A stretch of DNA of 64,000 nt from Halorientalis marina (lineage in GTDB: Archaea; Halobacteriota; Halobacteria; Halobacteriales; Haloarculaceae), in NCBI RefSeq assembly GCF_023028345.1, contig NZ_CP095487.1:434001-498000 (forward strand). Reading direction: 5' to 3'. The notes under the pieces were generated by a model, which did no database searches, had not been told where the DNA came from, and worked only from the letters and a program-made list of their open reading frames with translations. Of the stretch, positions 5,587 through 58,960 are shown in pieces. The first letter of the stretch is position 1. Each line of letters opens with the position of its first letter. The position numbers and the translations under genes are program-made.

Positions 5587-5609
5587 CTACTGCTCGGTAT
5601 CGGCACCTT

Positions 5610-5716
5610 CCACCTTTTTACCGCTCGGGTGTCCTCGCGGCGCGATGCGCCGCTGCGGGTACCACTCGCGGCAAAAACTTGGATAAAAAACCGGCCGCTC
5701 GCTCCGCTCGCGGCCC
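5610..5716. repeat. Palindromic intergenic element, copy 1
   Basis: It opens with CCACCTTTTTACC at 5610 and closes with GGCAAAAACTTGGATAAAAA at 5670-5689, so the ends are imperfect inverted repeats. A GC-rich stem (GCGGCG ... CGCCGC) lies inside. A second palindrome (GGCCGCTCGCTCCGCTCGC) runs to 5716. Two related copies lie at 9685-9764 and 57775-57833. This one sits between two convergent genes, so a bidirectional terminator role is plausible. Confidence 0.7.
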
Positions 5717-5718
5717 TT

Positions 5719-6828
5719 CTACCGCTCGGTATCGACGCCCTCGTCCGCGTCCTCCGCTCGCGCTTCTCGTTTCACGTCGTGGAACGCCTCGACGATGACC
5801 TGCTTCGCCACCGCGCCGCGGGTCGTCCAGTGGTGGGCGTAATCGAGCATGTCGTCGTAGATGTCCGGCTTGCAGCCCGCGGCCTTCGGGTGGCCGCCGC
5901 CGTTGACCTTCCCGGCGACCTCGTGGGCGCGCTCGAACGCGTCGGTGCCACGGATCGAGGCGCTGCCGGCGGGTTTGACGATCACCGCGGCGTCGGTCCC
6001 CTGTTCGCGGAGCGCCTCGGCGACCTCGTTCTGCGAACAGCGGCCGTAGGTGACGCCGACCGTCCAGTCGCCGATCTCGCGGATCTCGGCGCGTTCGATT
6101 GCCTTCTCGATCAGGGCCTCCTTCTCGACCCGCTGGTCGACGAGGAACTCCTCGACCTCCGGCGGCAGGTCGGCGCCGTGTTCCCGGACCACGTCGACGT
6201 ACTCGTCGGGTTCGACCCAGTAGGCGTAGTCGGCGAGGTCGTCGCTCCGTGGGTCTTCCTGGAGCCAGAGGTCGTGGTCCCTGGTCACTGCGGCCAGTTC
6301 GCGGAGGTACTCGGGCACGTCCGCGTCGAGCGACCGGGCGACCACGTCGGCCGTACACTCCTCGTCGGACTCCCCGACGACCCGCCGGGTGACGTGTTCG
6401 TCGACGGCCTCGCCGAGGGCCTCGTCCCACTGGTGGTGGTCGAACCAGTGGATTTCGCTCGCACGCTCGGCGGCGGCCGCGAGCGGTTCGATGTCGCTCT
6501 CGCTGTCCGGACAGAGGTCACAGACGAAGACGGTCACGTCCGGTTCGGCGTAGGCCGCGACGTGGTCGAGCGCCGTCTCGATGTCGCGGGGGCCGGCGGG
6601 CACGAGCGCGGCCGCCTCGTCGACGAGTTCGCGGACGAGCGCCACGCAGGCCAGCCCGTCGGCGTCGGGGTCAGCGATCACGACCGCCGGCGCACCGGCG
6701 AGCGCCTCGCGGTGTTCGCGCTCTTTCTCGGCTTCGGCGAAGGAGTCGGGGTGGAAAAAGCCCTCCCCGGGCAGGACCGACTTCCGGTCGATGGAGAGCC
6801 GGTCGTCGTCGATGAGCCAGTCGTCCAT
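5719..6828 (-). CDS. DHH/DHHA1 family phosphoesterase
   Basis: This 369-residue protein has the DHH phosphoesterase signatures: a DPDADGL motif at about residues 53-59, a Mn-binding DHH (WFDHHQWDEA) at about residues 149-152, and the DHHA1 nucleotide-binding GGGHPKAAG at about residues 314-322. The family includes RecJ-like exonucleases and NanoRNase/c-di-AMP phosphodiesterases. The substrate cannot be told from the sequence, and the length is shorter than archaeal GAN/RecJ. It is convergent with the zinc-ribbon gene and separated from it by a palindromic repeat. Confidence 0.9.
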   Translation of the reverse strand: MDDWLIDDDRLSIDRKSVLPGEGFFHPDSFAEAEKEREHREALAGAPAVVIADPDADGLACVALVRELVDEAAALVPAGPRDIETALDHVAAYAEPDVTVFVCDLCPDSESDIEPLAAAAERASEIHWFDHHQWDEALGEAVDEHVTRRVVGESDEECTADVVARSLDADVPEYLRELAAVTRDHDLWLQEDPRSDDLADYAYWVEPDEYVDVVREHGADLPPEVEEFLVDQRVEKEALIEKAIERAEIREIGDWTVGVTYGRCSQNEVAEALREQGTDAAVIVKPAGSASIRGTDAFERAHEVAGKVNGGGHPKAAGCKPDIYDDMLDYAHHWTTRGAVAKQVIVEAFHDVKREARAEDADEGVDTER

Positions 6829-57324: not shown

Positions 57325-57774
57325 ATGGACGCCACCATCCAGGGGGTCCGGGTCGCCGGCACACCGACCGGCCCCGTCCCGGTCGTGTTGCTCGCGCCCG
57401 ACGGCGAGCAGGACTTCCTGCCCATCTTCATCGGCTTCGACGAGGCCGCCAGCATCGCCCGCGGCCTCGACGCAAGCGACGTCGGCCGGCCGCTGACCCA
57501 CGACCTCACGCTCGACATCGTGGAGGAACTCGGCGGCCGTGTCGAGCGTGTCGTCGTCAGCGACGTCGAGGACGGCACCTACATCGCCGACCTCCACGTC
57601 GCGACCCCGCGGGAGTCCGTCGTCGTCGACGCCCGCCCCAGCGACTCGCTCGCGCTCGCGGCCCGCACCAACGCCCTCATCGAAGTCGCCGAGGCCGTCT
57701 TCGAGGACGGCCGCCGCGACCCCGACGAGTTCGACGACCTCGACGACATCCGCGACGTGATGGATGTGGTCTAA
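57325..57774 (+). CDS. Bifunctional nuclease (BFN) family protein
   Basis: This 149-residue protein matches the DUF151/bifunctional nuclease family, with LPIFIGFDEAASIARGL near residue 31, RPLTHDLTLDIVEELGG near residue 55, and DARPSDSLALAART near residue 100. The family name comes from plant homologues; nuclease activity in archaea is not established. The gene ends in an acidic tail and its stop is followed at once by palindromic element copy 3. Confidence 0.88.
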   Translation: MDATIQGVRVAGTPTGPVPVVLLAPDGEQDFLPIFIGFDEAASIARGLDASDVGRPLTHDLTLDIVEELGGRVERVVVSDVEDGTYIADLHVATPRESVVVDARPSDSLALAARTNALIEVAEAVFEDGRRDPDEFDDLDDIRDVMDVV

Positions 57775-57833: not shown

Positions 57834-57883
57834 GGCCGGCCGCTCGGCTCCGCCTCGCGGCCGGTACGACGACCGAGTGCCAG

Positions 57884-58052
57884 ACCGCAACCGCAACCGC
57901 CACCGCCACTGCCCCCACACCGCCACCGCCTCGCACCGCCACTGCCCCCACACCGCAACCGCAACCGCCACCGCCACTGCCCCCACACCGCCACCGCCTC
58001 GCACCGCCACCGCTTCCCCACAACCTCGCCTCGCACCGCCACCGCACCCCGA
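57884..58052 (+). repeat. C-rich tandem repeat (68-bp unit)
   Basis: Two near-perfect 68-bp units (57884-57951 and 57952-58019) are themselves built from ACCGCA/ACCGCC hexamers. The pattern fades to 58052. It is non-coding on the plus strand and lies between palindromic element copy 3 and hisE. A weaker version of the same composition follows copy 2 at 9803-9920. Confidence 0.8.
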
Positions 58053-58085: not shown

Positions 58086-58379
58086 ATGGACGACACCGAC
58101 GAGATTCTCGACGACCTCTTTGCCGTCATCGAAGACCGGAAAGCGAACCTCCCGGAGGACTCCTACACTGCTTCCCTGTTCACCCACGAGAAAGGCGAGA
58201 ACGCGGTGCTGGAGAAACTCGGCGAGGAGACGACCGAACTGCTCCTGGCCGCCAAAGACGACGACCGCGAGGAGATCGCCCACGAGTCCGCCGACATCGT
58301 CTACCACCTGCTCGTCCTGCTGGCGATGAAGGACATGGACATCGAAGACCTGCGGGCGGAGCTGGCCGACCGACGATAG
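58086..58379 (+). CDS. hisE: Phosphoribosyl-ATP pyrophosphatase HisE
   Basis: This 97-residue protein performs the second step of histidine synthesis. It has the HisE/MazG-like helices with SYTASLFTHEKGENAVLEKL near residue 20, and metal-binding GEETTELLLAAK and ESADIVYHLLVLL. ATG 58086 is chosen over a GTG at 58068. The last 33 bp of the gene recur 199 bp downstream. Confidence 0.92.
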   Translation: MDDTDEILDDLFAVIEDRKANLPEDSYTASLFTHEKGENAVLEKLGEETTELLLAAKDDDREEIAHESADIVYHLLVLLAMKDMDIEDLRAELADRR

Positions 58380-58590
58380 CGACCGCGAGCGACGGGAGGA
58401 GCGAGCGGCTTTTTGGCCACCGGAAGACTCACTGCGTTCGTCTTCCGAGCACCCGTTCGTTCCCTGCGGTCACTCACGGGAACCACGTTTTTCGACGAGT
58501 GGTGGCGAGTGAAACGAGCCACTCGAGTCGAAAAAGGTGGTGGGGGACCTGCGGGCGGAGCTGGCCGACCGCCGGTAGTCCGCGAGCGAC
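58347..58590. repeat. Duplicated hisE tail enclosing three hairpins
   Basis: The final 33 bp of hisE (58347-58379) recur at 58546-58578, still ending in TAG, with two changes; the similarity runs on to 58393 and 58590. Between the copies are three stem-loops: GGAAGAC/GTCTTCC, GTTCCC/GGGAAC, and a long TTTTTCGAcGAGTGG/CCACTCgAGTCGAAAAA pair (58488-58535). The layout is like an insertion with a target duplication, or a local tandem duplication. Confidence 0.75.
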
Positions 58591-58597
58591 CGCGTTC

Positions 58598-58960
58598 TCA
58601 GCCCGCGAGCAGGCCGCCGACGGCGCCGCCGATGGCGCTGTCGATGGCGAGCACGAGTGCGATGACGACGCCGATGACGAGGACACCGACGCCGAGCAGG
58701 CCGCCGACGGGGCCGGCGGCGGCGCCCCCGACGGCTCCGGCGCCGACTCCGAATATGACGGCGAGGACGATGCCCCCGATGGCACCGGCGAGCAGGCCGT
58801 GCCAGGCACCGCTCCCGATGCCGCTGTCGGCGAGGTAGCCCGCGACGCCGCCGCCGATCAGGCCCGCGCCGACGTGACCGATCACCGGGAGTATGAACGC
58901 GACGATGCCGGCCACGAGGCTGACGAGAAAGCCGATGCCGACCGCACGCCAGTCTGTCAT
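58598..58960 (-). CDS. DUF5518 family membrane protein
   Basis: This 120-residue protein is Gly/Ala/Val-rich with three or four hydrophobic segments and matches the haloarchaeal DUF5518 type (RAVGIGFLVSLVAGIVAF, GAGLIGGGVAGYL). The function is unknown. ATG 58960 is used. It is convergent with hisE, with the repeat region between. Confidence 0.8.
   Translation of the reverse strand: MTDWRAVGIGFLVSLVAGIVAFILPVIGHVGAGLIGGGVAGYLADSGIGSGAWHGLLAGAIGGIVLAVIFGVGAGAVGGAAAGPVGGLLGVGVLVIGVVIALVLAIDSAIGGAVGGLLAG

Follow-up and report, generated by a model that had tools for sequence, protein, structure and literature searches.

The repeated end of hisE in Halorientalis marina, with the hairpin segment that it encloses, is one visible case of an order-wide family of elements that have gene tails as their partners. 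The family sits at gene 3' ends in fixed orientation and is short and non-coding, and its members look like a mobile element able to land in a gene end without breaking the gene. The parts follow one another in the order gene tail, stop, terminator-like hairpin, T5, 8 nt, T5/hairpin/A5 core, GGTGG and a second copy of that tail with its stop. The window, i.e. the whole stretch of DNA analysed here, comprises 64,000 nt of contig NZ_CP095487.1 (positions 434,001 to 498,000, forward strand), and the features discussed are given in Table 1.

The hisE locus and its hairpins

An earlier note, made from the letters of the window alone, had stated that the last 33 bp of hisE recur 199 bp downstream with two changes. 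This was confirmed: the direct repeat (58347-58379 and 58546-58578) has a spacing of 199 nt and is identical at 31 of 33 positions, and both differences are third-codon changes (CGA CGA versus CGC CGG). When a short gap is allowed, the match continues beyond the stop to 58393 and 58590, which explains why the feature had been drawn as far as 58590. The present 3' end of hisE (58379) belongs to the left tail copy, and what was originally the gene end has probably been displaced to become the right copy. The hairpin cluster described between the tails holds as well, with the segment folding at -81 kcal/mol versus a shuffled mean of -62.8 (z -4.3) and containing the hairpin TTTTTCGAC/GTCGAAAAA (arms 58482-58496 and 58527-58541).

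The two-hairpin module of the hisE element is missing in most members of the core family. It is itself dispersed, occurring in the same genome (G000:C1) near 316060, 1061445 and 2736887-2737063, and at locus L114 it has a further hairpin within one loop, so that modules nest. Upstream, low-complexity CCGCCACCGC / CCACTGCCCCCACACCG repeats lie at 57880-58050, between the preceding gene (stop at 57774) and hisE.

Table 1. Coordinates of the hisE element, its neighbours and the second family member, as positions of the window.
Feature	Position	Strand	Remarks
Second family member	5587..5742	-	gene tail with stop, 5742-5719; T run; core, 5682-5610; diverged copy of the tail with stop, 5609-5587
hisE (phosphoribosyl-ATP diphosphatase)	58086..58379	+	read from ATG; TIGR03188, E 3e-28
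Left (working) hisE tail copy, stop TAG	58347..58379	+	similarity to the right copy extends to 58393
hisE 3' UTR: terminator-like GC-rich segment, T5 run 58410-58414, spacer GGCCA	58380..58419	+	
Nested two-hairpin module, GGAAGAC...GTCTTCC and CCCG...CGGG	58420..58482	+	
Core hairpin of the dispersed family, CCACGTTTTT...AAAAAGGTGG	58483..58540	+	
Right hisE tail copy	58546..58590	+	33 nt including stop (58546-58578) and 12 nt of similar 3' UTR
DUF5518 gene, convergent, directly after the hisE element	58598..58939	-	PF17647

The hisE segment across relatives

The hisE tail repeat exceeds chance. Comparing 97 distinct hisE loci by a score of the tail against its downstream sequence, we obtained 28 at the hisE of the window; six loci scored at least 21, all of them with such a hairpin, and the other 91 scored 17 or less. 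The six loci with a second hisE tail are that of the window, H. regularis (L014, printed with a sequence identical to L084), L007, Halomicroarcula sp. SYNS111 (L057), Halomicrobium katesii (L099) and HArc-gm2 (L090), and in each of them a T-run/A-run hairpin lies between both tails. As a control within the genome of the window, 870 mismatched pairs of left and right flanks gave a 95th percentile of 13.5 versus 32.5 at hisE, the few high scores being taken to be pairs from one same array. Chance and assembly artefact were ruled out as explanations, with independent genomes repeating the architecture at hisE and at other genes.

An empty hisE site was observed in three congeners (G002, G005 and G006; loci L013, L012 and L009), where a single hisE tail leads straight to the DUF5518 gene. 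The hisE flanks of the window, joined without 58347-58545, align near full length with these three genomes at 79% identity. Given the single tail directly against DUF5518 in all three, the hairpin segment is, as inferred from these alignments, an insertion. The earlier note had read it so and had looked to related strains for an empty site, and both the reading and the expectation are supported. Further empty sites in the genus were observed at nuoI (three genomes), argF (one) and etfA (one).

The core family in Halobacteriales

The hairpin, for which a search elsewhere in the genome had also been suggested, is not unique: the core pattern has 32 exact copies in the genome of the window and none in a reversed control. 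A looser pattern matched every one of the 8 genomes examined in the genus. Across the order Halobacteriales it matched 105 of 195, and the reversed-pattern control gave 0 matches. Cores are 50-75 nt long within inserts of about 100-300 nt, and their ends are inverted repeats (CCAC.TTTTT / AAAAA.GTGG). They are true hairpins, with a mean MFE of -33.0 versus -16.6 for shuffled sequences. In 121 unique cores of 50-60 nt, more than one kind of base pair occurs at a given rank of the stem; inner stems vary between copies with pairing kept, and apical triloops of the GNA type (GAA, GGA and GCA) are common. A T run no more than 9 nt upstream of CCANNTTTTT was found in 150 of 168 family members, the commonest sequence after it being CGC-CCACG. 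Rfam gave no match near the gathering score. Hairpins with a GANCGNAGNGA-type loop are extremely common in many 3' UTRs of these genomes (e.g. L006, L052, L085 and L092), and this loop is similar to that of the stable mini-hairpin GCGAAGC, in which G.A pairs flank the loop.

The window contains another family member, on the minus strand, with the gene tail GGCGTCGATACCGAGCGGTAG and the diverged tail copy AAGGTGCCGATACCGAGCAGTAG. The gene before it gave a weak, sub-threshold DHHA1 match and looks like the same gene as the one bearing an element at L241 and L318.

Copies of gene tails behind other genes

Flanks were compared core by core for 168 distinct cores, namely those with 350 nt of sequence to the left and 250 nt to the right, and a direct repeat was observed at 62 of them. 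The loci of the genus comprise 80 regions from among the matches listed, and 20 order-level regions were chosen preferring close core pairs in Haloarcula-like genomes. The right junction is sharp: the downstream copy starts 0-8 nt past GGTGG in 62 of 62 cases, for which random pairing gives 0.3%. A same-strand gene end lies within 350 nt upstream in 59 of the 62, so the repeat is the upstream gene's own tail, including its stop; in 2 of the 59, the recorded left boundary is an array-internal copy. In the genome of the window, where the 30 loci came from the 32 pattern matches without regard to tail copies, a copy accompanies 10 of the 30 cores. The 106 of 168 cores without a detectable tail copy are located farther from the gene end than those with a copy (median 136 versus 48 nt).

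Across 49 non-redundant cases, the coding part of the copy, stop included, spans 20-135 nt with a median of 45. This length bears no relation to how far the T run lies from the stop (rho -0.01). Of 979 gene ends, 86 lie within 200 nt of a core and 48 of these have a tail copy, versus 8 of the 893 without such a core, and at least three of these eight coreless ends (L007, L057 and L114) have variant cores that the pattern missed. Since the regions were selected, neither the 62 of 168 nor the Fisher test on the 979 gene ends can be taken as an unbiased rate. Genes with an element, named by eye from their tails, include argF, hisE, hisF, hisH, nuoI, etfA, purM, pheT, a thiolase and a LOR/SDH-like gene. 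The tail groups behind the names other than purM include misregistered tails, and their 'between' mean, too low on that account, was left out of use. Arrays were observed as well, for example at hisE of Halorientalis regularis, with different cores inside one array at L121, L154 and L247. A mechanism that ends the duplication exactly at the stop was considered and rejected: the query of an early scan ended there, and once it was extended, some copies were found to include UTR.

History of the two tails

At many loci the two tails match as far as the stop and share nothing beyond it (45/45 at L207 and 30/30 at L185), and at L206 they agree at 74 of 75 positions, the sole difference being inside the stop codon. 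In a minority (L125, L186, L271, L212 and L306), the copy extends across the 3' UTR in the direction of the T run. We compared left and right tails in 53 non-redundant pairs whose gene end was recognised and whose tail measured at least 18 nt; an identity filter removed none. The divergence observed is mostly synonymous (107.5 of 155 differences; pS 0.18, pN 0.026), a share of 69%, where copy-and-decay, with the duplicate merely eroding behind a gene under constraint, would give 39% (p 2e-14). In 17 of the 53 pairs the two stop codons are not the same, and in 13 of these 17 the right copy is still a stop. From the synonymous excess and the right-hand stops retained, it follows that both tails have been real gene ends for most of their separation. 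Two further proposals on the left tail were not upheld: A+T-rich recoding is unsupported (66 versus 53, p 0.27), and a bias of the left boundary toward in-frame positions (30, 11 and 8 of 49 modulo 3) is probably an alignment effect of third-position changes.

The earlier note had suggested that the right-hand copy may be the original hisE tail. This is favoured, if weakly, as all 7 congeners compared are nearer the right tail on two bases only. The purM of the same genome is a firmer case, with 7 of 7 relatives nearer the right tail over 126-132 nt. At nuoI, relatives are nearer the left tail, and at argF they are split; the rule that the left tail is foreign and the right one native is therefore not valid everywhere. 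In the argF array of G004, the outer tails agree with each other over their final 34 nt, and the middle tail differs from both. Three species share the etfA junction GGTGG-CATCCGAGG with the same extra base, and the tails differ between species; within a species both tails are of that species' own type, a pattern compatible with concerted evolution through gene conversion. Tail pairs at L318, L188 and L302 have several synonymous differences each and can serve as markers of allele exchange between strains.

Origin of the gene-tail copies

The explanation to which we give a slight preference over doubt is that a short hairpin element enters the gene tail together with a replacement tail, stop and terminator, followed by recombination between the tails. 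The unit would consist of replacement tail, stop, terminator and core, its tail coming from another allele of the gene. Its entry into the coding tail would restore the reading frame at once and shift the resident tail downstream. Homologous recombination between the direct tail copies may then homogenise them, excise the element cleanly or re-integrate it, multiply it into arrays and transfer it across strains or species at the same gene. Entry as a unit with a replacement tail is an inference, with no excised form, mobility or enzyme seen, and the direction at nuoI and argF, the UTR-including copies (as a long target duplication would give) and the 106 of 168 cores without a copy speak against it. 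The earlier note had left a choice between a duplicated target and a carried copy of the gene end. Its premise of an insertion stands, and the choice remains unsettled, the synonymous divergence arguing for the carried copy.

The duplicated target would correspond to a MITE-like palindrome that transposes just past the terminator with an unusually long target duplication (coding tail, stop and UTR), after which the UTR part erodes and gene conversion maintains the likeness of the coding part. Such an origin would suit the right copy abutting the core end exactly, the inverted repeats at the core ends (CCAC.TTTTT / AAAAA.GTGG), the extension of the copy into the UTR at L125, L186, L271 and L212, and the halt of erosion at the stop, which is expected from constraint on the left copy. 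We nevertheless regard it as unlikely, though still worth keeping in view, because copy length varies widely (20-135 nt of coding tail), the synonymous share is 69% where copy-and-decay predicts 39%, the right copy keeps a stop in 13 of the 17 pairs with unlike stop codons, and no transposase with such ends was identified, with only Y1 and reverse transcriptase examined. Mobility would be dispensable if slippage or unequal crossing-over at a pre-existing hairpin had duplicated the gene tail with its terminator in tandem. Direct repeats and hairpins favour slippage, and near-identical tandem units occur at L267, L243, L241 and L307; cores that differ within one array (L121, L154 and L247), a right junction always at the core end, ends shared by dispersed cores across 105 genomes and empty sites that have neither hairpin nor tail copy make this origin improbable.

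The left boundary is set relative to the stop and not to the T run, and orientation follows transcription, as would be the case if the mRNA 3' end up to the termination site were converted into cDNA and inserted behind the gene. The accessible part of a study of a haloarchaeon documents T stretches as terminators, at which transcripts end (PMC7237163). This route has very little to commend it overall: many copies end at the stop codon without the UTR, and reverse transcriptase (PF00078) was detected in 1 of the 195 Halobacteriales genomes and is absent from that of the window, which disfavours a cDNA route unless an enzyme outside PF00078 is involved. Reverse transcriptase was rejected as a driver on the same count. 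It is just as hard to credit that the elements are static tandem terminators kept for transcription termination, with the tail copies as accidental by-products. The two T runs behind hairpins in each element and the housekeeping nature of the genes (named by eye) would be accounted for; the patchy presence among species (6 of 97 hisE loci) and the tail copy at about half of the core-adjacent gene ends would remain unexplained. The Y1 transposase (PF01797) was likewise rejected as a driver, since its occurrence is not associated with that of the cores (both in 65 genomes, core alone in 40, Y1 alone in 50 and neither in 40; p 0.38, genome lists transcribed by hand). It is missing from 11 of the 28 core-rich genomes (at least 8 cores). 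A past or distant source is not excluded.

Extending the replacement-tail explanation, we tentatively propose, with somewhat less conviction than an even chance would call for, that the family is a homing-like and non-coding parasite that lives at gene ends. Its hairpin, some 60 nt long, would invade the coding tails of housekeeping genes, bringing along the tail, stop and terminator that replace those of the gene; it would be harmless since the frame is restored, and would spread between haloarchaeal species gene by gene via the host tail as recombination site.

Implications

An element of this kind would offer a simple route for mobile DNA into protein-coding sequence at no cost, with persistence at housekeeping genes. 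Two gene ends per locus would be readable traces of recombination between haloarchaeal strains, and the tail pairs would amount to a natural experiment in which archaeal gene conversion and allele exchange can be assayed. The family is also a warning for annotation: 3' tails, terminators and 'intergenic' hairpins in these genomes may partly be products of a mobile element.

Comparison with known systems

Integrative elements with an attachment site in a gene 3' end are flanked by direct repeats of the gene end, and the gene is restored on insertion. The hairpin family differs in that its inserts contain no integrase or other gene and are too short, and in having a different gene tail at each locus. 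The host repertoire speaks against a retroelement, with PF00078 in 1 of 195 genomes. The family resembles MITEs in its terminal inverted repeats, its shortness (core of 50-75 nt) and its lack of a transposase gene; it departs from them in that its copies are 20-135 nt long and variable, where MITEs have a short target duplication of fixed length. Like REP/BIME elements, it consists of extragenic palindromes in many copies and of hairpin clusters; unlike the REP/RAYT system, its cores are not associated with the Y1 family, and to our knowledge no tail copies are known for REP/BIME. Those elements, which have RAYT transposases, are many-copy extragenic palindromes that form composite hairpin clusters, according to the portions of the reports available (PMC2817692, PMC3733652).

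Among haloarchaeal elements, the MITEs, PATEs and SMRs of Haloquadratum walsbyi are short, transposase-free and bear inverted repeats or palindromes. SMRs lack a target duplication, their mobilisation was termed enigmatic, and SMR-A targets IS605-type elements and PATEs (PMC3119063, accessible in part). Size and palindromes are shared with our family, whereas no gene-tail copy is described in the accessible part of that source (PMC3119063); our family differs from SMRs in having gene-tail copies at the ends of housekeeping genes. In the open-licence literature searched, no description was found of gene-tail copies adjoining hairpins in haloarchaea.

By analogy, and as far as the available part of the source allows, the closest printed architecture that we have met appears to be that of mobile ORFs in fungal mitochondria (PMC3630166). 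As described there, these insert at gene 3' ends (atp6 in Allomyces; atp6, atp9, cox2 and nad3 in Glomus), the inserted foreign C-terminal part becoming the working gene end and the native part lying downstream (PMC3630166). The same pages report conservation at the protein level with differing DNA, from which horizontal transfer was inferred, and LAGLIDADG or GIY-YIG homing endonucleases encoded by mobile ORFs of some hundreds of bases to about 1 kb (PMC3630166). The haloarchaeal inserts, at about 100-300 nt, have no room for a homing endonuclease, and their cores are hairpins of 50-75 nt without an ORF, spread over many different genes. A replacement of tails as in the fungal case agrees with the synonymous divergence and with purM; nuoI and argF give no single direction. 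On balance, we rate the family as belonging with the short palindromic mobile elements, a kind already known.
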